A stretch of 51,293 bases of DNA from a virus. The notes beneath the pieces are model-generated. The model worked only from the letters and a program-made list of their open reading frames with translations, was not told where the DNA came from and did not search any database. Each line of letters starts with the position of its first letter. Position 1 is the first letter of the stretch. The translations under genes were made by a program, and so were the position numbers. Below, in pieces: positions 3,038 to 37,342 of the stretch. Location of the stretch: the IMG/VR virus record IMGVR_UViG_3300020411_002386, positions 1 to 51,293 of that record; one strand, 5' to 3'.

Positions 3038-3779
3038 TGAATTTTGGATCCTCAAAATTAGCCATTACTAAGGCATGATATCTAACTGCTCCTGATTTAT
3101 TATTTACCGCATGATTATGCTGAGTATTAATTATCCATGCTTCATTTAAAGCATAATGTTGAAAGTGATGTTTACCATCCATATAAACAATCATCTCTGT
3201 ATCTTTTGTAGTTATAAGTGGAATATGTAAATAAGCATGAGTATAAATTTCTTCATAATAACAATGACTATGCCAATTAATTCTTTCACTATCATCTACT
3301 TTAGATACCATAATTCTATCACACATATCCCAAGTAACAAATCGTTCTATAATACTTCTAATGTATGGTAATTTTAATTTAGTATCAACTAAATGTTCTG
3401 GGGGAACTCTACCATTTTCTAATAAATGTTTCTTACCTAATACCTCTAAGAAATCTTTAGTTTCACCAAAACCAAAATCAGGATCATCACACCAATTTCT
3501 TAATATCTTCGAAGACCAATAATTACTAGTTCCAGCTCCTCTTACATTTTTAACATCATTATTATATCCACTCCATTGACCATTAAGATTTGATAATTCA
3601 TCTTTAATTTGTTTTTCATTTAAATTTAAATTATCTGCTAAACGATAATGAGGAGTATATAGTAATTCTTTGGCAATAGGATGTATAGCTCTATCAGGCG
3701 AACATCTAGGATTACAAGATGGATCAAAGGCAGGAGCAGATTCTACATTTTGTAATCGATCATGTAATTCGTAAGACAT
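3015..3779 (-). CDS. 2OG/Fe(II) oxygenase-like protein with HxH in place of HxD
   Basis: 254 aa. GGGGAGG eight bases before the ATG at 3779 fixes the start (MSYELHDRLQ). The C-terminal half follows the Asp/Asn hydroxylase-like pattern: INWHSHCYYEEIY...LHIPLIT, then NEAWIINTQHNHAVNN and RYHALV. The first iron motif is H170-S-H172, where the three related proteins in this cluster have His-x-Asp; the distal His is 221 or 223 and the 2-oxoglutarate Arg is 233. The change may alter metal binding or activity. The N-terminal 150 residues match nothing I recognise, apart from a short Cys-rich stretch (SCNPRCSPDR). Confidence 0.65.
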   Translation of the reverse strand: MSYELHDRLQNVESAPAFDPSCNPRCSPDRAIHPIAKELLYTPHYRLADNLNLNEKQIKDELSNLNGQWSGYNNDVKNVRGAGTSNYWSSKILRNWCDDPDFGFGETKDFLEVLGKKHLLENGRVPPEHLVDTKLKLPYIRSIIERFVTWDMCDRIMVSKVDDSERINWHSHCYYEEIYTHAYLHIPLITTKDTEMIVYMDGKHHFQHYALNEAWIINTQHNHAVNNKSGAVRYHALVMANFEDPKFNAFFPRQ

Positions 3780-8093: not shown

Positions 8094-8196
8094 GCCCAAC
8101 AGCATTATGCCGCTAAGGCGTAACCTGAAGGTGCAAAATTATCGTTTGCAGTTACTTTTTGTAGACTAAAATACCAGTCGATCCTGTTTCGCCCCC
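8094..8196 (-). ncRNA. ssrA: tmRNA, coding (5') piece of a permuted two-piece ssrA
   Basis: From 8196 the minus strand reads GGGGGCGAAACAGGATCGAC, the conserved tmRNA 5' end, in which GGGGGCG pairs with CGCCTCC of the acceptor piece (7 bp, with G3.U70, the alanine identity pair). The tag frame at 8149-8105 encodes ANDNFAPSGYALAA then TAA, and the stop lies in the 3-base loop of a hairpin at 8094-8119 (helix 5). TCTACAA after the D-like arm pairs with TTGTAGA of the acceptor piece (helix 2). Only 47 bases separate the 5' end from the resume codon GCA, so there seems to be no room for pseudoknot 1. A further hairpin, GTCACTT/AAGTGAC at 8064-8091, may mark the 3' end. Confidence 0.9.
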
Positions 8197-8207
8197 ATCA
8201 TAAATGC

Positions 8208-8440
8208 ACTAGCCAATAAAGTATTGATTAAAACCAAAAACTTCAAAGATCATAAAAGTAAAGAATAAAAGCATTATAGCCCATAAAATCATTTTACCAC
8301 TAAAGTTAGTAGAAGCCAATCTTATTCCTATAAACTCATTTCCTAATACTCGTAACATTAATTCAAATTCATTTGAATCATTTTTAATTTCAACAATTTT
8401 TTCTTTTTTCTCTTCTGCCATTTTCTTTCCAATGCATTTA
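8208..8440 (-). other. Intervening segment of the pre-tmRNA, with terminal inverted repeats
   Basis: The segment between the encoded CCA (8441) and the first G of the coding piece (8196) begins TAAATGCATT (8440-8431) and ends AGTGCATTTA (8210-8201). These pair over 10 bp, with one G.U, and would extend the acceptor stem in the precursor, as expected for a permuted tmRNA removed by RNase P and 3' processing. Unusually, the loop holds a complete ORF. Confidence 0.75.
8209..8421 (-). CDS. Single-span membrane protein encoded inside the tmRNA intervening segment
   Basis: 70 aa from the ATG at 8421, with GGAAAG a few bases upstream. The N-terminal 40 residues are charged (MAEEKKEKIVEIKNDSNEFE), followed by one membrane helix (MILWAIMLLFFTFMIFEVFGF). 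Its stop is 13 bases before the mature tmRNA coding piece. Translation must happen on the precursor or on a separate transcript, because tmRNA maturation would cut it out at both ends. No family recognised. Confidence 0.7.
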   Translation of the reverse strand: MAEEKKEKIVEIKNDSNEFELMLRVLGNEFIGIRLASTNFSGKMILWAIMLLFFTFMIFEVFGFNQYFIG

Positions 8441-8493
8441 TGGTGGAGGCGTTGGGTATCGCACCCAAGTCCTGTATATCCTCGATCATCTAC
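8441..8493 (-). ncRNA. ssrA: tmRNA, acceptor (3') piece of a permuted two-piece ssrA
   Basis: The minus strand has TTGTAGA (pairs with the coding piece), then a T-arm at 8468-8452 (stem TTGGG/CCCAA, loop TGCGATA), acceptor strand CGCCTCC at 8451-8445, A73 and an encoded CCA at 8443-8441. The acceptor strand pairs fully with GGGGGCG at 8196-8190. The order acceptor-first, tag-last is that of circularly permuted ssrA in alphaproteobacteria. The 5' end lies just after a TATAAATA late promoter, so transcription may start at or very near the mature end. Confidence 0.88.
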
Positions 8494-8498
8494 AAGTC

Positions 8499-8506
8499 TA
8501 TTTATA
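8499..8506 (-). promoter_or_regulatory. T4-type late promoter of the tmRNA operon
   Basis: TATAAATA on the minus strand matches the consensus recognised by gp55-type late sigma, whose gene is at 47954-48547. Initiation 5-7 bases downstream would fall at about 8493, the 5' end of the acceptor RNA. It is right after the terminator of the BMP gene. Confidence 0.8.
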
Positions 8507-8512
8507 TTATAT

Positions 8513-8537
8513 AAAAAAGGGTGACAAAAAGCCACCC
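8513..8537 (-). terminator. Rho-independent terminator after the BMP-family gene
   Basis: On the minus strand, GGGTGGC-TTTTT-GTCACCC followed by TTTTTT: a 7-position stem with one mismatch and a U-run. It separates the BMP transcript from the tmRNA operon. Its core is nearly the same as the hairpin at 9671-9696. Confidence 0.85.
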
Positions 8538-10168: not shown

Positions 10169-10876
10169 TTATTTTTCATTCTTTAAATCTACCATGTTAA
10201 TGATTTTAGATATTTTCCATGGTGTAAAACATACAGTTCCTAAACTGAAATGATCTGCACCATAGTCGCGATAGCCTCGAACATCATCTATAGTAGTGAT
10301 GCCTCCACCAGCTATAACTTCTACATGTGGATGTACCTTTTTAATATACTTTAATATTCTTAAGGTATAAGGCATTATTTTTTTACCACTTAAACCCCCT
10401 TGAGGGACGGGTAAAGTATTACTTGCGTGGATTTGTTTAAATCCAGAATCTACAAGAAAATCTATTTCATCGTTCATAAATGTTGGGGGTATTTTGGCAA
10501 TACACCATCTTCTAGGACTTCTTGTAAAACTAGCAAAGCCTGGCCAAACATTAGGCGTAGTATTAGGACAACCTAAATTAATTTCAACATTTGCTTGCTT
10601 GGGAATTTTTCTATATAGTTCATGCCAATCAGACATTTCTATAGCGCTTATACTCATTACATCACGAGGATGTTTTAATCCATATTCAATACCTTGGTTT
10701 TTTAAACCTAGTTTATTAACCCAGCCATCTTTAGTATAACGTAATGTTTTTAAAATTTGTTTGAATCTTCCAGGCCTTGGTTTTAATGTCCAGGTTCCAG
10801 ATACTGAAAGAACATCCCAGCCTGCAGGTCTATTAGATTTTAAATAATTTCCAAAAGGTGCTGCTATAAAAAACAT
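10169..10876 (-). CDS. pyrD: Dihydroorotate dehydrogenase-like protein
   Basis: 235 aa, shorter than cellular PyrD (about 300-340). NLGCPNTTP, IAKIPP, HASNTLPVPQGGLSGKKI and VIAGGGITTIDDVRGYRDYGADHFSLGT are the FMN- and orotate-binding motifs in family order on a TIM barrel. It oxidises dihydroorotate to orotate in UMP synthesis. The shortened N-terminus lacks a membrane-anchor helix, so it resembles soluble class 1 enzymes. It overlaps the end of pyrF by 13 bases, giving two successive late steps of the pathway (the phosphoribosyl step could come from the host or from 36863-37342). Confidence 0.85.
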   Translation of the reverse strand: MFFIAAPFGNYLKSNRPAGWDVLSVSGTWTLKPRPGRFKQILKTLRYTKDGWVNKLGLKNQGIEYGLKHPRDVMSISAIEMSDWHELYRKIPKQANVEINLGCPNTTPNVWPGFASFTRSPRRWCIAKIPPTFMNDEIDFLVDSGFKQIHASNTLPVPQGGLSGKKIMPYTLRILKYIKKVHPHVEVIAGGGITTIDDVRGYRDYGADHFSLGTVCFTPWKISKIINMVDLKNEK

Positions 10877-11466
10877 TCTATTGGGTTATCCTTTAAAGGC
10901 CTTCCTATTACTAAATAATCAGCACCATTAGAAATTGCTTCTTCTGGCGTACTCACTCTTACTTGATCATCATTTGATTCTTTTAATCTTATTCCTGGAC
11001 AAATTCTTTTAAAAGAATGAACCCTATCATAGTAATTAAACAGTGATAAATCTTGAGGAGATAATACCATATTAAATTTATAATATAATAAATTATCACA
11101 TATTCTTTTATATATGTCACTCTGTTTTTCCCAATTACCAGGAAAAGAAGTTAAATGAGAAACAATAGCAATATTAATATCATTTTTTAAAGGAGATATA
11201 TGCTCTATACATTTTTCACCATTTTCGAAATGTATAGTAGTCATATAAACATTTTGTTTAATTAACCATTTAATAACGGTTTCAACTGTATTTGGAATAT
11301 CATATAATTTCAAATCAACAAATACTTTATAGTCTTTAAACTCATATAAATTAGGTAATAAAGTATGATTGATCTTTACACCATATATTTTATCTTTTAT
11401 TGGTTCTAAAAATTCGATAGCTTTATCGATTTCCATACCATCTAATGCAGCAAAAATTTTATTCAT
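10864..11466 (-). CDS. pyrF: Orotidine 5'-phosphate decarboxylase
   Basis: 200 aa, close to the bacterial norm of about 230. VDLKLYDIPNTV contains the catalytic Asp-Lys-x-x-Asp set, and CPGIRLKESNDDQVRVSTPEEAISNGADYLVIGRPL holds the phosphate-binding end of the barrel. It converts OMP to UMP. Its ATG is 14 bases after the encoded CCA of the tRNA, so the tRNA must be cut out of a polycistronic mRNA, or the gene has weak independent translation. It is transcribed from the late promoter at 12452-12459 as far as can be seen. Confidence 0.92.
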   Translation of the reverse strand: MNKIFAALDGMEIDKAIEFLEPIKDKIYGVKINHTLLPNLYEFKDYKVFVDLKLYDIPNTVETVIKWLIKQNVYMTTIHFENGEKCIEHISPLKNDINIAIVSHLTSFPGNWEKQSDIYKRICDNLLYYKFNMVLSPQDLSLFNYYDRVHSFKRICPGIRLKESNDDQVRVSTPEEAISNGADYLVIGRPLKDNPIECFL

Positions 11467-11480
11467 TATAAATACTCATT

Positions 11481-11567
11481 TGGCTTTGGGGGGTGGATTC
11501 GAACCACCACGTCCTTAAGGACAATACATGAACAGTGCATCGCGTCTACCGTTTCCGCCACCCCAAA
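11481..11567 (-). tRNA. Chimeric class II tRNA: Leu-like body, anticodon GUU (Asn)
   Basis: Cloverleaf: acceptor TTTGGGG/CCCCAAA, D-arm GCG..GCG with GAAACGGTAGAC loop, anticodon arm ATGCA-CTGTTCA-TGTAT (one G.U), long variable arm TGTCC-TTAA-GGACGT, T-arm GGTGG-TTCGAAT-CCACC, G73 and encoded CCA (11483-11481). D-arm and variable arm match bacterial tRNA-Leu almost exactly. The loop gives anticodon GTT (11533-11531), and U1-A72 and G73 are those of tRNA-Asn, not Leu (A73). Base 37 is C, where a purine is almost universal. It sits 9 bases after the aminoacyl-tRNA-synthetase-like gene on the same strand. Confidence 0.88.
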
Positions 11568-11576
11568 CTATTTAAC

Positions 11577-12428
11577 TCAATACGGATGCATTGGGTCTAT
11601 CTGTTGTTCTTTATTATCTAGGGCACTAATTAATCTTGTTAATCCTATTCCTCCACCGACTCGTGGAAAAAAGTTTAAGCCCAAGAAATCTTCTAATTCT
11701 TTTTCTACTCTATCTTTTCCGAATAGATCAAATAATAAATTAGCATACTCTCCGTTTGTAATAGTATGAAATGTATTTCTCATTTGTTCTACATCACATG
11801 ATCTTTCTGCTGATCCTATTGTTTCCATCCCACCTAATATAACATCAATCTTTTTACTATGAACACCGTTTTCATATCTACTCATATTCCAAAACGGTGA
11901 TGTGAATTCAGGAAAATCTGTTATCATAGTTGTACCGAATTCTTCATGCATTCTGTTTTCATGTTCTGCTTCTAGTTCAGCATTAGCATCTAATTCGAAA
12001 TGTCTTTGCCAAGCTTCATAAGTTCTTTCTTCTGGAGAATCAAATCCCATCCATTGAACTAATTCATATTCCATTCTTTTAAGATCATCTATTGTACCTG
12101 GCATTTCAAATTCAAACATTGGAAAGATTATATCATGTCTTCCAGGAATGGCATTTGGTTCTTGTCTATACGAAGTTGAGACACAAAAAAAACCCGGAGT
12201 GTCGGGCTTAGTGAGTAATTCGTGTTCTAACCACATTTGTCCTGTTTGAGGCAATGGCCAGACTTCGTTGGCGTACTTATATGTTGCAACATTGAATGGG
12301 TCTTCGCATGCTGCTAATATACTTAATCTGTTTTGTGTATGAACTTCTAGAAACCCTTTGCCCAAAAAAAAGGACCTGAGAAGGTCCGTGGCGTTTGTAA
12401 ATTTCTGTGGATCAATTAGCTGTGTCAT
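11577..12428 (-). CDS. Minimal class IIb aminoacyl-tRNA synthetase-like protein (AsnRS/AspRS type, no anticodon domain)
   Basis: 283 aa. Class II motifs are in order: GFLEVHTQ (25-32, motif 1 region), S86-YRQE-90 with R97-HD and FPMFEFE (103-109) as motif 2, and G258-GGIGLTR-265 as motif 3; PLPQTGQMWLEHELL fits the amino-acid site. The motif 2 and 3 arginines are present, so ATP chemistry should work. The N-terminal OB-fold anticodon-binding domain (about 100 aa) is absent. Similar free cores exist as archaeal AsnRS-related asparagine synthetases and as EpmA. The neighbouring odd Asn-anticodon tRNA suggests a matched pair, or amide synthesis. It has an AAAGGAAA site and a late promoter inside a dyad. 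Confidence 0.82.
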   Translation of the reverse strand: MTQLIDPQKFTNATDLLRSFFLGKGFLEVHTQNRLSILAACEDPFNVATYKYANEVWPLPQTGQMWLEHELLTKPDTPGFFCVSTSYRQEPNAIPGRHDIIFPMFEFEMPGTIDDLKRMEYELVQWMGFDSPEERTYEAWQRHFELDANAELEAEHENRMHEEFGTTMITDFPEFTSPFWNMSRYENGVHSKKIDVILGGMETIGSAERSCDVEQMRNTFHTITNGEYANLLFDLFGKDRVEKELEDFLGLNFFPRVGGGIGLTRLISALDNKEQQIDPMHPY

Positions 12429-17174: not shown

Positions 17175-17652
17175 GTGCTTTCCCTTTCCCATAGTCGCCA
17201 TCATATTTTCCAATATTTTCAGCTTCGAAATTTAAATATTGGCCAATACGTGTTCCAGGTTTAAGTTTAAATAAGCCACAAGATACATGCATTACTCCTG
17301 CCATGACACCATTATATCCGGTATCATATAAACCAGTAGTTAGATGAACCCCATTACGATTAAGCGTACTTCTAGTTATAACAAATCCAGCTTCTCCATC
17401 GCCGACTTCGACTTCATTTTCCATAATGACTTCATAAGTACCTGGATATAAATTCCAATACCCATGATCATCAAGAGCCAATTGTTCAGAGCCCCTATGT
17501 TGTTTAGTATCATTATCTAACACAAAATCATTTTTAGATATTTCAAATACTTTACCGACACGTAAATCAACTGCATTAGGTTGTACATCTTTAGGATCTA
17601 CATGGGTAAGGGTAGATGTAGAACCCAAACCCATTATATGTCTCATACTCAT
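17137..17652 (-). CDS. dCTP deaminase/dUTPase-family protein
   Basis: 171 aa. QPNAVDLRVGKVF, LYPGTYEVIMENEVEVGDGEAGFVITRSTLNRNGVHLTTGLYDTGYNG and KPGTRIGQY match the trimeric DCD/DUT fold; GLYDTGYNG is the substrate-uracil loop and RSTLNRNG the phosphate-binding segment. It supplies dUMP or removes dUTP for thymidylate synthesis and so works with ThyX (25089-25760). Pure deaminase, dUTPase or bifunctional cannot be decided by eye. ATGA overlap with queC. Confidence 0.85.
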   Translation of the reverse strand: MSMRHIMGLGSTSTLTHVDPKDVQPNAVDLRVGKVFEISKNDFVLDNDTKQHRGSEQLALDDHGYWNLYPGTYEVIMENEVEVGDGEAGFVITRSTLNRNGVHLTTGLYDTGYNGVMAGVMHVSCGLFKLKPGTRIGQYLNFEAENIGKYDGDYGKGKAHDEKYKEGSTAS

Positions 17653-18455
17653 GCGGCATGTTCCTTTAATACTTGTTCAGCATGAGCCTTAGCAACAGAG
17701 TAAGATACAGGTCCTGTTTCATCAGCATAGGATACTGGATCATCTCTATCTAATTTAATAAAAGCTTCGATACGCTCTACAGAAGAAGAACTCTTATAAT
17801 CAGAATACCAATCATCTTCGATTAATATAGGTTTATAAGAAGTATTAGTTCTTTTATATACTTGATCAAAATCTATTCCTAGACTTTCACAGAGTTTCTC
17901 TCCGTCTTTAAGAATATCAAATTTATCACCTTTTAGATAAGGTGTAAAATAAGTTACTTTCTCAGCATCCCAATTACCTTCACGGAAAGCTTTATCATCA
18001 GCATCTCTAAACTCCTGTCTACAATCAGGATAGATAGCATGATCACCAGCATGGATACCCAATGCTATAGCAGTTTCCTCATTAGTATCTTTTACAACAG
18101 ATAATGCCACAGCCTGAACCAAAGAAGCAAAGATTTTATTACGATTAGGTACAACTGTTTCTTTCATATTATCTTCTGCATAATGTCCTTCAGGAACATC
18201 AGCACCTCCAGTAACTAGAGCTGAAGATAATAGCTCTTGTAAACCATCAAGTTTAATAACTTGATACTTAATCTTATGGCCATGTATAGCCAAATAGTTA
18301 ACTAAGTCTTGGGCTCTTTCTAATTCACATACATGTTTTTGCCCATAATTCATAGACAAAGCAGTTACATTTTCAGCGCCAACTTCATCAATGGCTCTTA
18401 ATAATAAGGTAGAAGAATCCATTCCACCAGATAAAGATACTACAATATTTTTCAT
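17649..18455 (-). CDS. queC: 7-cyano-7-deazaguanine (preQ0) synthase QueC, zinc cysteines lost
   Basis: 268 aa. SLSGGMDSST (7-16) is the ATP-pyrophosphatase loop; ALSMNYGQKHVCELERAQ and VPNRNKIFASLVQAVAL are QueC hallmarks. It makes preQ0 from 7-carboxy-7-deazaguanine. Cellular QueC binds zinc through four C-terminal Cys (SCY...CGxCxxCxxR); here the equivalent stretch is TSYKP...SDYKSSSSVER with Ser or Tyr in their place. Works with FolE, QueD, QueE and DpdA in this block; co-translated with DUF3310 and dCTP deaminase genes (ATGA joints). Confidence 0.9.
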   Translation of the reverse strand: MKNIVVSLSGGMDSSTLLLRAIDEVGAENVTALSMNYGQKHVCELERAQDLVNYLAIHGHKIKYQVIKLDGLQELLSSALVTGGADVPEGHYAEDNMKETVVPNRNKIFASLVQAVALSVVKDTNEETAIALGIHAGDHAIYPDCRQEFRDADDKAFREGNWDAEKVTYFTPYLKGDKFDILKDGEKLCESLGIDFDQVYKRTNTSYKPILIEDDWYSDYKSSSSVERIEAFIKLDRDDPVSYADETGPVSYSVAKAHAEQVLKEHAA

Positions 18456-18700
18456 TTATTTCCTTCCTGTAATTTTTTCAAACGTTTTACTTCTCTAAGA
18501 ATATACCAACCAGCTTTCTCTAGGTCTTCTACTTCTTTATCGATTGCTTCATAACCTTCTTCTTTTTTATTACCCGCTCGAAGAAGATACTTTACGGCAT
18601 TACCTCTGGCAAAGTTAAGACCAAACCATTCTATAATATCAATAGCTTGATAACCACCAGGTGCCTGATAATGTTGCGGATCAATTTTATCTGCGCTCAT
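18452..18700 (-). CDS. DUF3310 (T7 gp1.7-like) protein
   Basis: 82 aa. IDPQHYQAPGGYQAIDIIEWFGLNFARGNAVKYLLRAGNKK...DLEKAGWYI matches the DUF3310 pattern (HY, GNxxKYxxR, DLxKAxxY). The T7 member is a nucleotide kinase; others are unstudied. The place between dpdA-like and queC genes with ATGA joints suggests a nucleotide role here too. Confidence 0.82.
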   Translation of the reverse strand: MSADKIDPQHYQAPGGYQAIDIIEWFGLNFARGNAVKYLLRAGNKKEEGYEAIDKEVEDLEKAGWYILREVKRLKKLQEGNK

Positions 18701-19467
18701 CTTTTTACAGTCTCCTTAAATACTTTTACATTATACATTATATCATCAATATCAAAATCTGTCAACTTATAATCGACAAATGTATCAAAATTAATTTTAG
18801 GTTTATGGGAAAACGGATATCTATCACCTTCAATACCCGCAGCGATAGGATTAGAGGTATCTATAGAATAGACCCAATCGTAATCCTTATAGTGTGAAAA
18901 CTCTTTTATATGCCAAGTTCCTAATAAGTGATGCTTACGAGATTTATTTATATGTGGCTCTAATGCTTTTAAGAGTTTAACTCTTTCCATAGCATGTTCT
19001 CCAGGTTCAGATCCCTTAGCCCAATTAAAACAAAAAGGTATACCGATATATTCTACACCACCTAATTTATCAAACTCAAGATAACATTGAATAAACTCTT
19101 CATGACTATTACCTTGAATAACAGCCATAGCATCAGAATCTAAGTCAGGATACTCTCCCAGAAATTCGATAGTTCTGTCGACAGTTTGTTTATAATCTCC
19201 GAGGACATCAGGGAGGACAAAAACGTTTGGTTTAATTCTATCAACGTAGTCTGCAATGAGGGAGTTTGATAAAGCAGCACCAAGCTCAAAACAACTATTG
19301 TCAAGAATAGTAAACTTCTCGAGAGAATCCACGATACTACGGTAATGCCAGTCTTCAATATAACGATGCAAGAGAATAAAATGATAATCGTTAATAATAT
19401 ATTTTCCATCAGCCTCTGCCTCAGCTAGCGAATGAGGTATTTCGTGGGAGATAAGGGGTAAATTCAT
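18697..19467 (-). CDS. dpdA: DpdA-like DNA transglycosylase (TGT superfamily)
   Basis: 256 aa from the ATG at 19467 (GGAG 6 bases upstream). LDNSCFELG (55-63) and VLPDVLGDYKQTVD (84-97) match the base-exchange active-site segments of the tRNA-guanine transglycosylase fold as seen in phage DpdA proteins, with Asp56 and Asp87 as candidate catalytic residues; AVIQGNSHEEF and IGIPF follow barrel order. DpdA exchanges guanine in DNA for a 7-deazaguanine. Its location in a queC/folE/queE/queD block supports this. It is shorter than bacterial DpdA (about 400 aa). The start overlaps denV by 47 bases. Confidence 0.78.
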   Translation of the reverse strand: MNLPLISHEIPHSLAEAEADGKYIINDYHFILLHRYIEDWHYRSIVDSLEKFTILDNSCFELGAALSNSLIADYVDRIKPNVFVLPDVLGDYKQTVDRTIEFLGEYPDLDSDAMAVIQGNSHEEFIQCYLEFDKLGGVEYIGIPFCFNWAKGSEPGEHAMERVKLLKALEPHINKSRKHHLLGTWHIKEFSHYKDYDWVYSIDTSNPIAAGIEGDRYPFSHKPKINFDTFVDYKLTDFDIDDIMYNVKVFKETVKR

Positions 19468-19912
19468 TAAGGTCTCCATAATAATTAATTTTACTTATAA
19501 ACCGATCTTTATCTTTATACATATTCGGTTTTAAATATATACGTTCTAATATACGAGCTATAGCTATTTTATAATCTTCTTTTGTTGGTGAGTAATCACA
19601 CCACAGGTAATCATCGTATGCTTCTTTAAACCTCTGTCTATGCGCTTTATATCGCGTCTTATCTATGGTTATACCGCGGTTTATAAGATTATTATATAAC
19701 ATTTCATATCTTTTGTAAAGGTATAATCCTTTATTAAAAAAGAATTTACAATGTCCACCATTAAGAGTATATCTATCAGGAAGGTCATCCATAGGATGAT
19801 TCTTCTCAACTCTCTTCTTTACAATATGTAAGAATTGGGTTATTTCTTTATATTCAGCAACAGCATGAACTTGGGTTAGATGATCTGGATCAACTAGATT
19901 TATCCTAGTCAT
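19421..19912 (-). CDS. denV: Pyrimidine-dimer DNA glycosylase (T4 endonuclease V-like)
   Basis: 163 aa, T4 enzyme 138. MTRINLVDPDHLTQVHAVAEYKE matches T4 endonuclease V at the same numbers: Thr2 (catalytic amine), Arg3, His16 and Glu23. LNGGHCKFFFNKGLYLYKRYEMLYNNLINRGI continues the match. It excises UV-induced pyrimidine dimers and nicks the strand. The last 50 residues (RISKINYYGDLNEFTPYLPR region) are longer and different from T4. Sunlit surface water fits this gene. Confidence 0.92.
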   Translation of the reverse strand: MTRINLVDPDHLTQVHAVAEYKEITQFLHIVKKRVEKNHPMDDLPDRYTLNGGHCKFFFNKGLYLYKRYEMLYNNLINRGITIDKTRYKAHRQRFKEAYDDYLWCDYSPTKEDYKIAIARILERIYLKPNMYKDKDRFISKINYYGDLNEFTPYLPRNTSFAS

Positions 19913-20315
19913 TAATATGCTCTTCTAATTTATTAAGAAATATATTATGTCCTTTTGGTATAGTTTTAAATTGAAAACCATATTTTCTCTTAGACAAATC
20001 TTTATATACTTTTATTAAATCTTCTTTAGCTACTTTAGATAAATCATTTTCAATATCTATATACCAGCCAGCTACTTCAGATACCTCAGAAGATATCTTA
20101 GACGCAGCTTCAGAAAATAAAACTCTATCCCATCTATTTTTATATCCAAGAGCCGTCATTTGTAACCAATTAAGAACTCTTTTATAGTTATGATAATTTT
20201 TATTCTCTTCATAAAAATCCATAACATATTTAATCTTCTCACAGATATTCTTTATAGAACGAGCATTAACTCTAACTATCTGCCAATGTATATTAAACTT
20301 ATCAACTTTAGACAT
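19905..20315 (-). CDS. Conserved helical protein of marine T4-like phages
   Basis: 136 aa from the ATG at 20315 (GGAGAAGG upstream). NIHWQIVRVNARSIKNICEKI...NYKRVLNWLQMTALGYKNR is all-helical and resembles conserved cyanophage hypotheticals (from memory). First gene after the early promoter at 20342-20370. Function unknown. Confidence 0.7.
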   Translation of the reverse strand: MSKVDKFNIHWQIVRVNARSIKNICEKIKYVMDFYEENKNYHNYKRVLNWLQMTALGYKNRWDRVLFSEAASKISSEVSEVAGWYIDIENDLSKVAKEDLIKVYKDLSKRKYGFQFKTIPKGHNIFLNKLEEHIND

Positions 20316-20341
20316 TAAGACCTTCTCCATATTATATAATT

Positions 20342-20370
20342 ATAATAACACAGATTTAAACTAATGTCAA
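20342..20370 (-). promoter_or_regulatory. Sigma70-type early promoter
   Basis: TTGACA (20370-20365), 17 bases, TATTAT (20347-20342) on the minus strand, about 30 bases before the gene at 20315. The -35 lies in a small dyad (AAACT/AGTTT) and overlaps the end of the preceding gene at 20367. Confidence 0.85.
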
Positions 20371-20756
20371 CAGTTTTTTTCAAGATATTTTAAATTATTT
20401 TCCCAATCATCTTTAAACTTATGATATTTAGGTAATTCAATAAGTCTCTGCTTCTGTTTATAATTAATTGATCCGGGTTTAGATTTCATTCGCCAAAAAG
20501 ATTTTCTTTCTGGTCGAGGTAAATTAGCATCCGGATCATTAGCAAATTCTTTTAGAGGTCCGTTAAATGTCCATGTTTTTATTTCATGATTCCATAACGT
20601 CATAGTAGATCCATCTGGAGATATTAAATCAATACTATATCGATTAATACCTTTGCGTTGAGTATTAATAACTTCCCAATGTTTACCAGATGGATCTTTT
20701 AACTTAATATCTTTGACGACTTGTCCGCCTTTATCTTTTAATAAGACATATACCAT
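20367..20756 (-). CDS. Hypothetical protein
   Basis: 129 aa from the ATG at 20756, overlapping the folE stop as TAATG. KLKDPSGKHWEVINTQRKGINRYSIDLISPDG looks like beta-rich sequence, with a basic tail (RPERKSFWRMKSKPGS). Not QueF: no catalytic Cys in a QueF motif. Function unknown; it sits within the deazaguanine block. Confidence 0.65.
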   Translation of the reverse strand: MVYVLLKDKGGQVVKDIKLKDPSGKHWEVINTQRKGINRYSIDLISPDGSTMTLWNHEIKTWTFNGPLKEFANDPDANLPRPERKSFWRMKSKPGSINYKQKQRLIELPKYHKFKDDWENNLKYLEKNC

Positions 20757-21436
20757 TAACAAGCAAAGTTTTGTTGTAGTTTTATATTATCAAAGAATTC
20801 AGTCTTAGCATGTGATGTATTAAACAAACCTTTTACAACAGTTGTTTGTGTTAAAGAACTATGAGACTCGACGCCTCTATTCTCCATACATCCATGAGTA
20901 GCTTGAGTATAAACAGCTACGTTTTCTGATTCAGTTGCTTTCATTATTTCTCTACAAATATCATTAGTTAATTCTTCTTGTAGAGTTCCTCTACGAGCAC
21001 ACCACTGAACTATTCTAGTATACTTAGAAAGACCAATTACTTTCTCTGTAGGTATAACACCAATATAAGCAACTCCTTTTACTGTCTGATGATGATGACT
21101 ACATAAAGAAGTAAATTCAGCTCTAGCTGTAATCATACCATGATAACTATTCTTACCTGTATTAGGAAAAGAAGTTACATTAGGTGGTAAATGATAACGA
21201 CCAGCCATAATTTCATTAACATACATCTTAGCTAGTCTAGCGCCTGTATCTCTACTATTAGGATCATTCTTAGTATCAATAACTAAAGCATCTAATACTT
21301 CTGTAAACTTTTCAGCTACTTCATCTATTAAATGAGTCCTTTCACCAGGCTCTATATGTTTTGAAATATTATCACCAGCCCAAAAACTATCACCAGCTGC
21401 TAGGATTCTTTTTTTAATCTTTTCTGATACTTTCAC
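20756..21436 (-). CDS. folE: GTP cyclohydrolase I
   Basis: 226 aa. FTSLCSHHHQTVKGVAYIGVIPTEKVIGLSKYTRIVQWCARRGTLQEELTNDICREIM and THGCMENRGVE hold the zinc Cys/His and the catalytic residues of FolE. It turns GTP into dihydroneopterin triphosphate, the first step to preQ0. Start is a GTG at 21436 with AAGGAG five bases upstream, overlapping the preceding stop. First enzyme of the local deazaguanine pathway. Confidence 0.95.
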   Translation of the reverse strand: MKVSEKIKKRILAAGDSFWAGDNISKHIEPGERTHLIDEVAEKFTEVLDALVIDTKNDPNSRDTGARLAKMYVNEIMAGRYHLPPNVTSFPNTGKNSYHGMITARAEFTSLCSHHHQTVKGVAYIGVIPTEKVIGLSKYTRIVQWCARRGTLQEELTNDICREIMKATESENVAVYTQATHGCMENRGVESHSSLTQTTVVKGLFNTSHAKTEFFDNIKLQQNFAC

Positions 21437-21873
21437 ATTAACTCCTTTACAAAATCCATATTACTATGAACCCAAATAATTGTATCACCAAATTTATTTT
21501 CTTTGGCTCTACGCTCTTTTGCATAATCAACATAACTTTTCATGTCTTCTATATTATAACTGAAAATCTTTTCATTGTCAAGGTCTACTGCAAATATTTG
21601 TTCAGCTTCAGTTGTATATAACCAACCTTCTTCATTTTTTCTTTTATTATATAATTCGACACACATATATTCTTTAAACATATTTGTCTTAACATCAGTT
21701 ACTACACCATCAACTACACAGTCAATTTTTTTCTTAACCTGGCTATCATAATCATTTTTATCTACCCAAGAAATATTATTTTCTTTACAATACTCTTCAA
21801 CTAATTTTTCTCCTAGATCACCCTTCTTACCAGATGCTCCATATCTTCCTTCTGAATTTTTATACCAGGTCAT
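21433..21873 (-). CDS. PD-(D/E)XK nuclease-fold protein
   Basis: 146 aa from the ATG at 21873 after GGAG. GDLGEKLVEEYCKENN (helix with Glu), KIDCVVDGVVTDVKT (D...VxxDVK, the Asp-x-Lys catalytic strand) and KEYMCVELYNK fit a restriction-endonuclease-like core. Possible roles are a DNA nuclease or Holliday/flap enzyme; target unknown. Close relatives without known function occur in marine phages. ATG shares TAATG with the small ORF upstream. Confidence 0.7.
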   Translation of the reverse strand: MTWYKNSEGRYGASGKKGDLGEKLVEEYCKENNISWVDKNDYDSQVKKKIDCVVDGVVTDVKTNMFKEYMCVELYNKRKNEEGWLYTTEAEQIFAVDLDNEKIFSYNIEDMKSYVDYAKERRAKENKFGDTIIWVHSNMDFVKELM

Positions 21874-22043
21874 TATATACTCCAATTTTCAATTTGTATT
21901 TTTAATTCATTAATTCTTTCTTCTAATACACTTACTGTAGTTCGAAGATGTCCTGTATCTTCTGGCGTATACCTACTTCTTAATAAAGCAACTTCACGCA
22001 TTAATACATCTCTATATTCTAATATTTCTTTTATTGTTTCCAC
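21873..22043 (-). CDS. Small coiled-coil protein (56 aa)
   Basis: GTG at 22043 (overlapping the TAG of the AsnB-like gene; AGGA upstream) encodes VETIKEILEYRDVLMREVAL and on to LEERINELKIQIENWSI, a two-helix coiled coil with a RYTPEDTGHL linker. The stop overlaps the next ATG. A similar short protein is, from memory, common in cyanophage genomes. Coding packing on both sides argues strongly that it is real. Confidence 0.8.
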   Translation of the reverse strand: METIKEILEYRDVLMREVALLRSRYTPEDTGHLRTTVSVLEERINELKIQIENWSI

Positions 22044-22681
22044 TATTTTTTCCTATAGGATTTATTATTATTTTGTAATACTTCAAAGTTAATCTTTTTG
22101 GGTGTATATGGTAATCCCACATCTTTTATATACATTCCAAAAGCTTTTTTATATTTTAACTTATATTCAGGATCAAGGCAACCTAATTCTTTTACTATAT
22201 TAACATTTAATAATGGTGACCGCATATTTATTTTATGAAATGAATATGCTTGATCCGAAAATGTTAAAAAATCTACCATGCGACGAATGTTATTGGTATA
22301 ATATTCATCAGCACCTATACCACTTAATAATATTGGAGAACAATGCTTTGCTAGAAAATAATGACCTGTGGCTATTCCAATGCCGGTTTCTTTACCTAAT
22401 GAATATCCAGCTCTTGTCATTTCTTCTTGGATATTATTAATATCTTTTTGACTATAAGGACCTATTACAGAAGCTTTTTGTTTAAGAAATTTATGCCTTG
22501 CTTTTAAAATATCTAAATCTTCATTTCCAGTCATAGATACTATTTTAAATTTTTTATTTAACTTATGTAATGCCGCGGCAATTACTCCGCTATCTGTTCC
22601 ACTACTCAAAGATACTGTAGTTAAACCAGGTACATACCATTCTTCAACGGCATTTGTTATAGCATCGAAAAAATTTTTCAT
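22043..22681 (-). CDS. AsnB-like ATP-pyrophosphatase domain without a glutaminase domain
   Basis: 212 aa from the ATG at 22681. SLSSGTDSGVIAAAL (24-38) matches the AsnB/beta-lactam synthetase PP-loop (SGGxDS), and SGIGADEYY matches the second AsnB signature. AsnB itself is about 550 aa with an N-terminal Gln-amidotransferase domain, absent here. It could use free ammonia or another amine on an adenylated carboxylate. ATGA joint with the oxygenase upstream suggests they act on one pathway. A role in altering the deazaguanine base or in asparagine supply is speculative. Confidence 0.75.
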   Translation of the reverse strand: MKNFFDAITNAVEEWYVPGLTTVSLSSGTDSGVIAAALHKLNKKFKIVSMTGNEDLDILKARHKFLKQKASVIGPYSQKDINNIQEEMTRAGYSLGKETGIGIATGHYFLAKHCSPILLSGIGADEYYTNNIRRMVDFLTFSDQAYSFHKINMRSPLLNVNIVKELGCLDPEYKLKYKKAFGMYIKDVGLPYTPKKINFEVLQNNNKSYRKK

Positions 22682-23271
22682 TTTGTAATTGTCCATTCCG
22701 GTAATACTGCCTCTCTAGGTACTAGCCAGGTTACAAGAACCCGACGGAAACCCCTTTTTATTTTTGTTACGCCGTGTACCACACTTGCGTTATAAATTAT
22801 TGTTTCACCAACTTTAAGTGGTATTTTATGTTGATTAGCATGATCATTCGGATCAAAAGAGTTATTTTCTTTAATTGTAGGATCCCCATCTGATACATTA
22901 GCTTCTTGTATAATTACATCGCCTCCGACTAAATCTTCTTCTTCGACAAGTGTTACAAAACTCATACCACCAACAACTGAATGGCCATCGATGTGTAGTG
23001 CAGCTTCTCCTCCTGGATGATATTCAAGTAAGAAGACATTCTTTAATCTCCATTCTTGTTTAGTAAAAGCTGTTGCCCAATCTATTTTTTTCTTGATAAA
23101 AGATTCAACATACTTTTTGATAACTGGATCTTCGTGTTTAAAAATATTACTAATACGTTGCCAAGTACCTTTCACAGTTTCTAAATCACTATCAAATATT
23201 TCTTTGAGATATTTAATCTCAGGTTCATCAAATAGCCGTTTTACATATACCTGATTAAGACTTGATTTCAT
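22678..23271 (-). CDS. 2OG/Fe(II) oxygenase, prolyl-hydroxylase (PKHD) type
   Basis: 197 aa. YHPGGEAALHIDGHS (H93-x-D95), GGDVIIQ, GETIIYNASVVHGVTKIKRGFRRVLVTW (H166, R176) is the full 2OG-FeII_Oxy pattern. Such genes are frequent in marine T4-like phages. Distinct in fold layout from the four Asp/Asn-hydroxylase-like genes at the left end. It overlaps queE upstream (stop of queE at 23271) and the AsnB-like gene downstream. Confidence 0.88.
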   Translation of the reverse strand: MKSSLNQVYVKRLFDEPEIKYLKEIFDSDLETVKGTWQRISNIFKHEDPVIKKYVESFIKKKIDWATAFTKQEWRLKNVFLLEYHPGGEAALHIDGHSVVGGMSFVTLVEEEDLVGGDVIIQEANVSDGDPTIKENNSFDPNDHANQHKIPLKVGETIIYNASVVHGVTKIKRGFRRVLVTWLVPREAVLPEWTITK

Positions 23272-24212
23272 TAGGTACCAATCGCATTACCAAATAAGTA
23301 ACAATGCAATCTACCAGAAACATTATAGCCTCTTTCAAAAGCGATCTTAGCTACTTCCCCCGCTCCTCGTTCTTGTTCTTCTACTGTAGCTCCAACAGGC
23401 ATAATGTATACAGGCCAATTTATTTTTTCAGCTCTGAACATAGCAAGAACTTCTTCCATCTCTTCCCATTGTTCTTTATGAGGACCCATTACAAATTTTA
23501 ATTGTCCAATATGACTATCAGAGTTCTTATTAGCGTTAAGACCTACTAAATTATAATCTGCAACTGTCTTAGGTTGAATAGCTTTTTCTCTTTTCTCTCC
23601 AGCCACAGACCATAACTTAGGAGATACAGAAAAGAAAACAGGAGCCTGCCATACACCATTATTCATTACACTATTTTTAAAATCATCTGTTAATTCTTGT
23701 GTTCCATTAGTTTCAAATGTTATACGAGCTGGCCGTTTATTACTATGTCCTCTCATTTCCTCATTAATTTCTACGACAGCTTGTTGAGCATGTTTCATTA
23801 AAGGTTCACCACCTGTATAACAAAGATGAGCTCTTTGTCCCGATACAGGATGTACAAAACCACCTTCTGGATTACTTTCCGTTTTAGTAGTTTCAAATAT
23901 CTGTTGATATATTTCTTTAGCTGTTTTATGTCCCATTAAATGTCTAAACTTCTTAGACCATGTATAAGAACTATCACATCCCTTTTCCCATACAGGAAGA
24001 TCTTCAACTCTATTAACAGTTTTAGGATCAAAGTCTTGATAAGGTAATTCCCAAGTATCTGGTTTAGTAGGATGATCTTGTCCAAAGCCATCACATTGTA
24101 AATTACATAAAAAGAATCTTAACCAGAATGTATGCACTCCAGTATATAATCCTTCACCTTGTATAGAATTAAATATTTCTGAATAAAAATATTTTTTTTC
24201 TTTCTTCTCCAT
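23271..24212 (-). CDS. queE: 7-carboxy-7-deazaguanine synthase QueE with split iron-sulfur motif
   Basis: 313 aa, about 90 longer than many QueE. NSIQGEGLYTGVHTFWLRFFLCNLQCDGFG is the radical-SAM start, CYTGGEPLM the SAM-binding GGEP, FETNGTQ and VSPKL follow. The usual CxxxCxxC is broken: C36-x3-C40, then about 38 inserted residues before C79 in GCDSSYTW, which looks like the displaced third cysteine. It rearranges carboxy-tetrahydropterin to CDG, the substrate of QueC. Confidence 0.9.
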   Translation of the reverse strand: MEKKEKKYFYSEIFNSIQGEGLYTGVHTFWLRFFLCNLQCDGFGQDHPTKPDTWELPYQDFDPKTVNRVEDLPVWEKGCDSSYTWSKKFRHLMGHKTAKEIYQQIFETTKTESNPEGGFVHPVSGQRAHLCYTGGEPLMKHAQQAVVEINEEMRGHSNKRPARITFETNGTQELTDDFKNSVMNNGVWQAPVFFSVSPKLWSVAGEKREKAIQPKTVADYNLVGLNANKNSDSHIGQLKFVMGPHKEQWEEMEEVLAMFRAEKINWPVYIMPVGATVEEQERGAGEVAKIAFERGYNVSGRLHCYLFGNAIGT

Positions 24213-24433
24213 TAATCCTCCTTAACTGTAGCTTTTTCTGTAGGTGTAGGAATACAATAAGACACACCATTAAAATCTGGAACATTCATTAACGCGTGGT
24301 TAACATTATGGGCAGCTTCAGCACATTTATAATAATCATAATAAACCATTTTTCTAGACGCTTCTAAATCTCTACCACTACCATCTTCTATTACTAATGT
24401 CCATAATAGAATCATTCCCCATAACGTTTTCAT
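24212..24433 (-). CDS. Small exported-type protein
   Basis: 73 aa. A hydrophobic start (MKTLWGMILLWTLVI) like a signal peptide, then a polar domain with two Cys (KCAEAAH, SYCIPTP), the plan shared by 14732-14956, 25757-26008 and 42414-42602. ATGA joint with queD. Function unknown. Confidence 0.7.
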   Translation of the reverse strand: MKTLWGMILLWTLVIEDGSGRDLEASRKMVYYDYYKCAEAAHNVNHALMNVPDFNGVSYCIPTPTEKATVKED

Positions 24434-24876
24434 CTACTATAGATAGCGCTATTGGCTCCATGTTCTGAACATTCTACACTTTCTACCCAACAACGACCTT
24501 TAGACATACTGTCAATTAATTCTTGAGCAAAGTTAAAAGCATGTTCAGCAAATTTTTCTACTCCAACTCCGTCAACAATATTTAGTTCACAGAGTTCAGC
24601 TGATTCAAGATTTCTAAAATACGTCATCATAGGATCATCTTTATCTAATACAACTTTATGATCAAAACTATCTTCTAACCAGGCCTTTAATGGTTTAAGA
24701 CCGCCAAAATCAACGACCCAGTTTCTTTCATCTAATTCACTACATCCAAAAGTAAACTTAAACGCTAAAGCATAACCATGTAAAAATTTGCAATGACTAT
24801 GAGCTTTAGGTTGTCTAAAGCATGCACTTAAACCAATATTATGGCCATAAGTCTTAGTCGAATAATGTTTTCCCAT
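24430..24876 (-). CDS. queD: 6-pyruvoyl-tetrahydropterin/carboxy-tetrahydropterin synthase-like QueD
   Basis: 148 aa. SHCKFLHGYALAFKFTF, WVVDFGGLKPLKAWLEDSFDHKVVL and VESVECSEHGANSAIY follow PTPS/QueD order. The zinc site differs from E. coli QueD: AAH becomes ACF (18-20) and HGH becomes HGY (33-35), while H26 and H28 are available nearby. Cyanophage PTPS proteins share this look, so it may be a family trait. Second step of the preQ0 pathway. Confidence 0.85.
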   Translation of the reverse strand: MGKHYSTKTYGHNIGLSACFRQPKAHSHCKFLHGYALAFKFTFGCSELDERNWVVDFGGLKPLKAWLEDSFDHKVVLDKDDPMMTYFRNLESAELCELNIVDGVGVEKFAEHAFNFAQELIDSMSKGRCWVESVECSEHGANSAIYSR

Positions 24877-36665: not shown

Positions 36666-36863
36666 TTATATCCCTTTTATTTGACCACTAGCCAAAACTG
36701 CTTCCCATGCGTCTTCAAAACCTTCAGCATGGATATATGCTTCTTCGTTATACCAAAGTCTTTTAAAGTATCCTGGATACATTTCCATAATAGTTTCATG
36801 ACTTGATTCTAGGTGTCCCTTACACATCCAAAAACATCTATAAGCATCTTTTACTTCATCCAC
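36666..36863 (-). CDS. Small hypothetical protein
   Basis: 65 aa. GTG start at 36863 overlapping the TAG of the upstream gene. Aromatic and acidic (YRCFWMCKGHLESSHETIME, FKRLWYNEEAYIHAEGFEDAW). Function unknown. Confidence 0.6.
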   Translation of the reverse strand: MDEVKDAYRCFWMCKGHLESSHETIMEMYPGYFKRLWYNEEAYIHAEGFEDAWEAVLASGQIKGI

Positions 36864-37342
36864 TAAGAAATCTCGGGCATAGTAAATAATGCGTTAATAT
36901 CTTCAAAGGGTTTTCTGGCAAATATAACCCATTTATATACTTCTGGATATGGACCATGAAATAATTCAAATTTTTCATTTATAAACTCTTGAAAACTTTT
37001 ACCTGTAGTAGCAACGTCGTCACATATTAAATAAGGTCGATGAACTATGTCACCTACTGAATTTATATATGTATCATCTGTACCATATTTATTCAATGCT
37101 TCAGCTAATTTTAATCCTCCTCGAGGAATTCCTAATGCTCTATAAAATGGTTTCTTTTGATAATCCATAATCATTTGTGCCAGGCAATCCCATTCAGAAT
37201 CACTTATAGCATCACATTCTATTTTCCAATTAAGTTCTAGGCCTGCATGAGAAATAAAATTACCTGATTGAAATAATCTTATAGGATCAAGTTTTAACTC
37301 TTCCGGTGTATAATCCATAGCATTTTTATTCCAATCTATCAT
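36863..37342 (-). CDS. Phosphoribosyltransferase-family protein
   Basis: 159 aa. ALGIPRGGLKLAEAL and RPYLICDDVATTGKSFQEFI are the PPi loop and PRPP-binding motif of type I PRTases. Could be an orotate PRTase-like salvage or biosynthesis enzyme, which would complete the pyrD/pyrF set, but substrate residues cannot be judged. Directly downstream of a second PRTase. Confidence 0.78.
   Translation of the reverse strand: MIDWNKNAMDYTPEELKLDPIRLFQSGNFISHAGLELNWKIECDAISDSEWDCLAQMIMDYQKKPFYRALGIPRGGLKLAEALNKYGTDDTYINSVGDIVHRPYLICDDVATTGKSFQEFINEKFELFHGPYPEVYKWVIFARKPFEDINALFTMPEIS

Follow-up and report, generated by a model that had tools for sequence, protein, structure and literature searches.

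A tRNA-linked synthetase-like enzyme of marine phages and its probable place in pyrimidine synthesis

We found that a virus-encoded protein resembling the catalytic core of AsnRS is a member of a hitherto undescribed family of cores resembling class II synthetases, which probably belongs to a pyrimidine route that bypasses CarAB and PyrB. In phages, the gene for this enzyme is nearly always followed by a dedicated tRNA. The best overall explanation, to which we assign a probability of about 0.5, is that the enzyme feeds UMP synthesis and that the phage tRNA probably supplies or carries asparagine. The pair was analyzed in a 51,293-base IMG/VR virus record that contains T4-like replication genes (the window). 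An earlier note on this DNA had proposed an orthogonal translation pair, a reading that is less likely than a pyrimidine route with a tRNA partner.

The enzyme and its locus

The synthetase-like gene heads a tight row on the minus strand of the window, where it is followed by 9 nt, the tRNA, 15 nt, and then pyrF-like and pyrD-like genes (Table 1). The only Pfam match of its 283-aa product was to the class II D/K/N synthetases (PF00152; E = 2.5e-16). Domain match, structural model, and coordinates agreed with the description in the earlier note of a minimal class II core ending 9 bases before a tRNA. In a structural ranking, the AlphaFold model (pLDDT 91.6, pTM 0.89) was closest to AsnRS, followed by AspRS, EpmA, and AS-AR, and the nearest structures were those of AsnRS with Asn-adenylate. 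Residues 1-275 of the model align to the catalytic domain of AsnRS only (Z = 26.4), and we therefore conclude that the enzyme has no anticodon-binding domain. The length of 283 aa, the lack of a second Pfam domain, and the catalytic-domain-only alignment all indicate that the N-terminal OB-fold is absent. Individual AsnRS structures (class IIb; 8h53, 2xti, and 1x54) share the catalytic fold over residues 1-275 (Z = 25 to 26) together with motifs 2 and 3, at about 20% identity.

In the HMM comparison proposed in the earlier note, the protein stayed well under the cut-offs of all named synthetase and asparagine synthetase models, those for AsnRS, AspRS, and EpmA among them. The best score against the asnS/aspS equivalogs was 26.1 bits (cut-off, 353), EpmA (GenX) models gave 13 of 264-287 bits, and the asparagine synthetase A model NF005055 gave 16.7 of 389 bits, although some other family members match asparagine synthetase A models weakly. 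The family corresponds to phrog_29758, whose function is not annotated, and its members are named "tRNA ligase" in cyanophages. Across the alignment, R88 and E90 of motif 2, E202, and R265 of motif 3 are invariant, and Q64, E106, and R209 are retained. We take R88, E90, E202, and R265 to be ATP-binding residues and Q64 and E106 to hold the alpha-amine. In AspRS, a lysine at the position matching L67 binds the Asp side chain; the enzyme has leucine there, as in AsnRS, with which it shares an Asn-type residue in the side-chain-holding loop. Judged from these aligned residues, the pocket is of the AsnRS type. A Glu-to-Ile change before F102 was considered as a loss of amino-group recognition and dropped, since both presumed alpha-amine holders are retained.

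Another possibility, that the enzyme works by itself as an asparagine synthetase like archaeal AS-AR and serves to provide Asn, would suit the structural similarity to AS-AR (Z = 23.2) and the weak asparagine synthetase A matches of some members. We consider it very unlikely: the score of the window enzyme is far under the cut-off, the Asp-binding lysine is absent, and the loss of CarB and PyrB and the pyrD/pyrF neighborhoods described below would be left unexplained. AS-AR, AsnA, EpmA, and HisZ have in common with the enzyme a class II core without tRNA-binding parts, a metabolic use, and adenylating chemistry. They are a different sequence family, however, whereas the enzyme described here is linked to UMP synthesis and its phage forms also to a tRNA.

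The pyrF-like protein scored 92.5 bits against TIGR01740 (cut-off, 92.3), and the pyrD-like protein is divergent and falls under equivalog cut-offs; almost no relatives of either were found among isolated phages. A phosphoribosyltransferase-like protein, which Pfam and NCBIfam did not recognize, has homologs that adjoin the enzyme in Pasteurella atlantica, Midichloriaceae, and several phages, and it is a candidate orotate phosphoribosyltransferase. A stand-alone Asn_synthase protein, far under the TIGR01536 cut-off, could speculatively be an accessory and a conceivable source of Asn. Genes for QueC, GTP cyclohydrolase I, and a QueD-like protein (17649-24876, minus strand) suggest 7-deazaguanine DNA modification. 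The window also encodes a permuted (two-piece) tmRNA (8105-8493, minus strand; RF04321 in Rfam, 57.1 bits; tag ANDNFAPSGYALAA); a short open frame in its intervening part (within ORF 8209-8535) is predicted to encode a membrane segment. Permuted tmRNAs of the alphaproteobacterial type are also present in relatives L022, L043, L048, L052, and L064.

Table 1. Features of the window that relate to the enzyme-tRNA pair and to pyrimidine synthesis
Feature	Position	Strand	Basis
Synthetase-like enzyme, 283 aa, class II (AsnRS/AspRS-like) catalytic core alone	11577..12428	-	ORF, PF00152, AlphaFold model
Spacer from enzyme stop codon to tRNA 5' end, 9 nt	11568..11576	-	Sequence
Dedicated tRNA: Leu-type body, 15-nt variable arm, GUU, U1-A72, G73, C37	11481..11567	-	ARAGORN and hand parsing
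Encoded CCA of dedicated tRNA	11481-11483	-	Hand parsing
pyrF-like orotidine-5'-phosphate decarboxylase, start 15 nt past tRNA	10864..11466	-	PF00215, E = 3e-20
pyrD-like dihydroorotate dehydrogenase, 13-nt overlap with pyrF	10169..10876	-	PF01180, E = 1.5e-13
Phosphoribosyltransferase-like protein, PRPP-loop motif LICDDVATTGKS read by eye	36863..37342	-	Motif and homolog context
Stand-alone Asn_synthase (AsnB synthetase) domain, no glutaminase part	22043..22696	-	PF00733, E = 9e-7

The dedicated tRNA and its linkage to the enzyme gene

ARAGORN called the 87-nt window tRNA as tRNA-Asn(GUU), and hand parsing verified each element of the chimera described in the earlier note, including the Leu-type D-arm, the long variable arm, U1-A72, G73, and the encoded CCA. 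Of tRNA-Asn it has GUU, G73, and U1-A72 and lacks the short variable loop and A37; of tRNA-Leu it has the D-arm and the long variable arm and lacks a Leu anticodon and A73. The anticodon and G73 specify asparagine identity for AsnRS or a non-discriminating AspRS, and U1-A72 specifies amidation by GatCAB (PMC9976931, PMC4206432). These Asn determinants, which the note had recognized in the window, were constant in all 99 distinct tRNAs of the family. The family tRNAs also keep the D-loop GG, the T-loop, and the full L-shape. Compensatory changes were found in 18 of 24 base pairs, 99.6% of cells were paired, and every arm was supported. Two features of the anticodon loop set the family apart. 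A pyrimidine (U or C) occupies position 37 in 92 of the 99 tRNAs (C37 of the window tRNA is one instance), with A37 and a normal loop retained in the other seven, and U33 is lost to C or G in 7/99. Neither C37 nor the neighboring pyrF and pyrD had been mentioned in the earlier note. Other tRNAs in the same phage loci had U33 with a purine at position 37 in 54/54 cases and a pyrimidine in 0/54 (Fisher P of about 5e-34).

The pair is conserved well beyond the window. Relatives of the enzyme are encoded in at least 599 stretches of viral contigs. Of 166 viral loci examined, one of them the window, 151 carried the tRNA, 7 ended too soon, and 8 lacked it, so that the tRNA was present at 151 of 159 testable genes, in nearly all cases 4-12 nt past the stop codon. 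In the reverse direction, a tRNA pattern search of viral contigs returned 119 loci. The gene was directly upstream in all 113 that were testable, while the other 6 loci start no more than 127 bases from the tRNA, and the tRNA was not found loose among tRNA clusters. Separate occurrence of the two partners in most related phages, which the earlier note had named as the outcome that would count against its pair, was thus not what we found; neither a lone tRNA nor a lone gene is the usual state, and a gene-tRNA linkage could hardly be tighter. Because of the long variable arms, ARAGORN misnames or misses many family tRNAs, for which hand parsing recovered the same GUU tRNA. The sharing of the tRNA among 151 of 159 loci and the compensatory changes in 18 of 24 pairs mean that the window tRNA is not a chance match.

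Isolated cyanophages have the same arrangement. The gene is present in P-SSM2, P-SSM5, and P-SSM7, at 62-66% identity and under the name "tRNA ligase," and is immediately followed by a tRNA-Asn. The pair is annotated in GenBank with no assigned function, and the papers that we found do not discuss it. More broadly, literature searches on the pair, on a route with missing PyrB, and on AsnRS paralogs with pyr genes returned nothing relevant. In P-SSM2 (AY939844.2, PSSM2_199), the tRNA-Asn is annotated at 164094-164179, while ARAGORN places it at about 162082-162169, behind the "tRNA ligase"; the coordinates in the record look shifted. The eight loci without the tRNA are two jumbo-phage records, L043/L044 (the same phage, with no such tRNA in its 187-kb record), L018, L056, L077, and L080. 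A search of viral contigs started from the jumbo-phage homolog L006 found nothing. In L170, an acceptor-like hairpin alone (TCCGGGG...CCCCGGAGCCA) takes the place of the tRNA just past the enzyme stop codon and could represent decay of the tRNA, a collapsed assembly, or a minihelix. One phage contig carrying the pair (L022) has a glutamine riboswitch (RF01739) at 3260-3308 on the plus strand.

Since the enzyme has no anticodon domain, it cannot by itself explain the constant GUU, which must come from host AsnRS, a non-discriminating AspRS, or the ribosome. The t6A modification at position 37 helps the reading of ANN codons, and a pyrimidine at this position removes the t6A site. The loss of purine 37, and in some cases of U33, would argue against the ribosome as the main reader. 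With a complete Asn identity set but an altered anticodon loop, the tRNA looks built for charging by the host and not for good decoding.

The tRNA could instead be an independent translation aid, a spare nuclease-resistant tRNA-Asn that stands beside the enzyme through shared transcription only. Altered anticodon loops are a reported mark of phage tRNAs that resist host anticodon nucleases (PMC10264068). The loop changes seen here fit such resistance, and GUU, the D-loop GG, and the T-loop are intact. We regard this possibility as decidedly improbable, however, because the tRNA is tied exclusively to one gene (113/113), other tRNAs of the same phages lack such loop changes, the pyrimidine at position 37 takes away the t6A site, and U33 is lost in 7 of 99.

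The earlier note also raised the possibility that the long variable arm, in place of the anticodon, is what the enzyme recognizes. This did not hold up as a general rule, given that arm lengths span 11 to 37 nt among the 99 distinct tRNAs and that close cellular homologs have no such tRNA. Subclades do share arm motifs. One group (L007, L008, L037, L047, L064, L065, and others) has arms of 28-37 nt with a common arm-loop motif, GCAA...TATTT, which something may read in that group.

Cellular relatives and missing pyrimidine genes

Scanning bacterial and archaeal genomes yielded 125 relatives of the enzyme, of which a few look like binned phage contigs. The cellular homologs are 52-63% identical and have the same catalytic residues. 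In 20 whole cellular genomes, the special tRNA was not found with tRNA model R1, whose best matches reached 56-74 bits versus 83-93 bits for family members. The anticodon was inspected among the best matches of each genome; these were ordinary tRNA-Leu, and a hidden special tRNA was rejected. Enzyme and tRNA co-occur nearly always in phages and never in the 20 cellular genomes tested.

The genomic neighborhoods of the enzyme point to pyrimidine synthesis, and this linkage holds across phyla. In P. atlantica, the enzyme, pyrF, and a phosphoribosyltransferase gene stand in order, with pyrD divergent. In Midichloriaceae, the order is enzyme, pyrF, phosphoribosyltransferase, and pyrD (and prs), as it is in a Rhodospirillaceae MAG, while Aureispira and other Bacteroidota have pyrD or a pyrEF fusion beside the enzyme. 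Near most phage loci no pyr gene is present, but L007, L054, and L055 have pyrD just upstream and a phosphoribosyltransferase gene just downstream of the pair, and P-SSM7 has an annotated orotate phosphoribosyltransferase.

For all life, pyrimidine synthesis is taught as starting with CarAB, PyrB, and PyrC. Using family cut-offs to call presence, we compared 30 enzyme-bearing cellular genomes with 14 controls; absence calls are soft because most of the enzyme-bearing genomes are MAGs. PyrB was over the cut-off in 2/30 enzyme genomes versus 14/14 controls (Fisher P of about 1e-9) and CarB in 3/30 versus 14/14 (about 6e-9). PyrF was present in 26 of the 30, with no match in 4, and 21 of the 30 had PyrF with neither PyrB nor CarB over the cut-off. 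Thirteen of these 21 had no PyrC-like match. PyrC of both types was absent in many enzyme genomes, and a PyrC-like amidohydrolase was retained in eight or nine Bacteroidota and other genomes. PyrD had no match in 11/30, mostly small MAGs. One genome (G008) had CarB, PyrB, PyrC, and the enzyme together. The complete chromosome of P. atlantica encodes PyrD, PyrF, a phosphoribosyltransferase, and the enzyme; CarB and PyrC are absent, and the one PyrB-family match is weak and under the cut-off. In a sample of 100 Saprospiraceae, PyrB was absent in 3/3 genomes with the enzyme and present in 90/97 without it (P = 7e-4). Furthermore, at least 12 of the 30 enzyme-bearing genomes have a separate full AsnRS. 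Given the absence of CarB and PyrB, the retention of PyrF, and the separate AsnRS, the enzyme most likely replaces the entry steps of UMP synthesis.

In a quick tree of 116 enzyme sequences, all tRNA-bearing enzymes fell in one clade of 43 (SH-aLRT 93) nested among tRNA-less cellular enzymes. This single nested clade indicates that the tRNA was gained once, on this tree by marine phages. Several members of the phage clade lack the tRNA without obvious change in the enzyme, and its occasional loss implies that it is helpful and not essential. When phage enzymes were compared with cellular ones, the tRNA clade showed no conserved basic residues of its own, an argument against a surface for tRNA binding having evolved anew. 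Mean net charge is -19 for phage and -10 for cellular enzymes, a weak argument against RNA binding since cellular members vary widely. In L171, a phage-clade copy without the tRNA lies between transporter/acetyltransferase and DegP/HflC genes, apparently a phage-to-cell transfer into an alphaproteobacterial chromosome without the tRNA.

These data bear on whether the two partners form a phage aminoacylation pair, in which the core would charge the tRNA for translation, with Asn or some other amino acid, by reading its acceptor end and body. The AsnRS-like fold with its catalytic residues, the near-perfect linkage, and the full L-shape with constant GUU and acceptor determinants all favor such a pair, and PylRS with tRNA-Pyl offers a precedent, being likewise a small class II enzyme encoded with a dedicated odd tRNA. 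Here, however, the tRNA has a normal Asn anticodon and the full host identity set, the enzyme has tRNA-free cellular relatives, and, unlike for tRNA-Pyl, there is no evidence of recoding. We therefore consider the pair unlikely. Homologs with identical invariant residues occur in tRNA-less cells, where they adjoin pyrimidine genes and coexist with a real AsnRS; the enzyme has no anticodon domain to keep GUU; the variable arm varies from 11 to 37 nt, and 92/99 tRNAs have a pyrimidine at position 37. Neither tRNA-clade-specific basic residues nor a tRNA in every clade member was seen. The orthogonal translation pair of the earlier note gave way to the same evidence, namely the tRNA-less cellular homologs, the pyr context, the separate AsnRS in at least 12/30 genomes, and the tRNA losses.

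A proposed entry into UMP synthesis

We propose that the enzyme would be the entry to de novo UMP synthesis, replacing CarAB, PyrB, and, in many organisms, PyrC, to which it has no sequence or fold kinship despite the same inferred place in the pathway. Tentatively, the reaction would be Asn + CO2 + ATP -> dihydroorotate, the simplest single reaction that could replace CarAB, PyrB, and PyrC starting from Asn. The enzyme would bind asparagine and ATP as AsnRS does and take up bicarbonate or CO2. Carbamylation of the alpha-amine would be followed by adenylation, and the side-chain amide would then close the ring to give L-dihydroorotate, with the amide nitrogen becoming N3 and CO2 becoming C2. 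PyrD, orotate phosphoribosyltransferase, and PyrF would convert L-dihydroorotate to UMP. BioD (dethiobiotin synthetase), in which an ATP-activated carbamate of an amine is ring-closed by a neighboring nitrogen, has the proposed chemistry; its fold is unrelated to that of the enzyme, and the similarity is an analogy only. Against this reaction, a side-chain amide is a poor nucleophile, and the PyrC-like enzyme of eight or nine genomes would be superfluous if dihydroorotate were made directly.

For the tRNA, the earlier note had raised the donation of an amino acid outside translation, which was a fair direction. Marine phages would have taken the gene from cells and then gained the tRNA directly behind it. 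Host AsnRS, or AspRS with GatCAB, would load the phage tRNA with Asn, and the poorly decoding charged tRNA could supply Asn to the enzyme, by release or directly. In many bacteria, Asn is made solely on tRNA-Asn (PMC4206432), and tRNA-supplied Asn would matter in such hosts. That the tRNA makes or holds Asn for the enzyme is a more doubtful proposal than the reaction itself, and the tRNA losses in L043/L044, L056, L077, L080, and L018 need explanation under it.

A stricter form would be tRNA-dependent pyrimidine synthesis, in which the substrate of the enzyme is the dedicated tRNA charged with Asn (or Asp), much as Glu-tRNA is the substrate of HemA in tetrapyrrole synthesis. The linkage data, the pyr genes that flank the pair in the window, L007, L054, and L055, the tRNA-Asn-type acceptor end, and the retention of only an acceptor-like hairpin in L170 are consistent with it. 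Cells, however, use the family without a special tRNA (although ordinary tRNA-Asn could serve), the enzyme persists past tRNA loss, and the product carboxylate would have to be freed from the tRNA; we find this form unlikely. By analogy, a dihydroorotate-forming enzyme derived from a synthetase and a non-decoding tRNA that presents Asn could constitute a tRNA-dependent UMP entry that bypasses CarAB, PyrB, and PyrC, to which we give a rather low probability.

If the proposed role of the enzyme in UMP synthesis is correct, Patescibacteria, Bacteroidota, Rickettsiales-type symbionts, and other groups would use an unrecognized replacement of CarAB/PyrB/PyrC, which would account for UMP formation in many small genomes that lack CarAB and PyrB. 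Ocean phages of Prochlorococcus, and probably of alphaproteobacteria, would carry this replacement route. A common phage gene listed as "unknown" would gain a function, and its tRNA would be one retained for metabolism, not decoding. The pair may thus represent an undescribed route to the letters of DNA and RNA rather than a second translation system.
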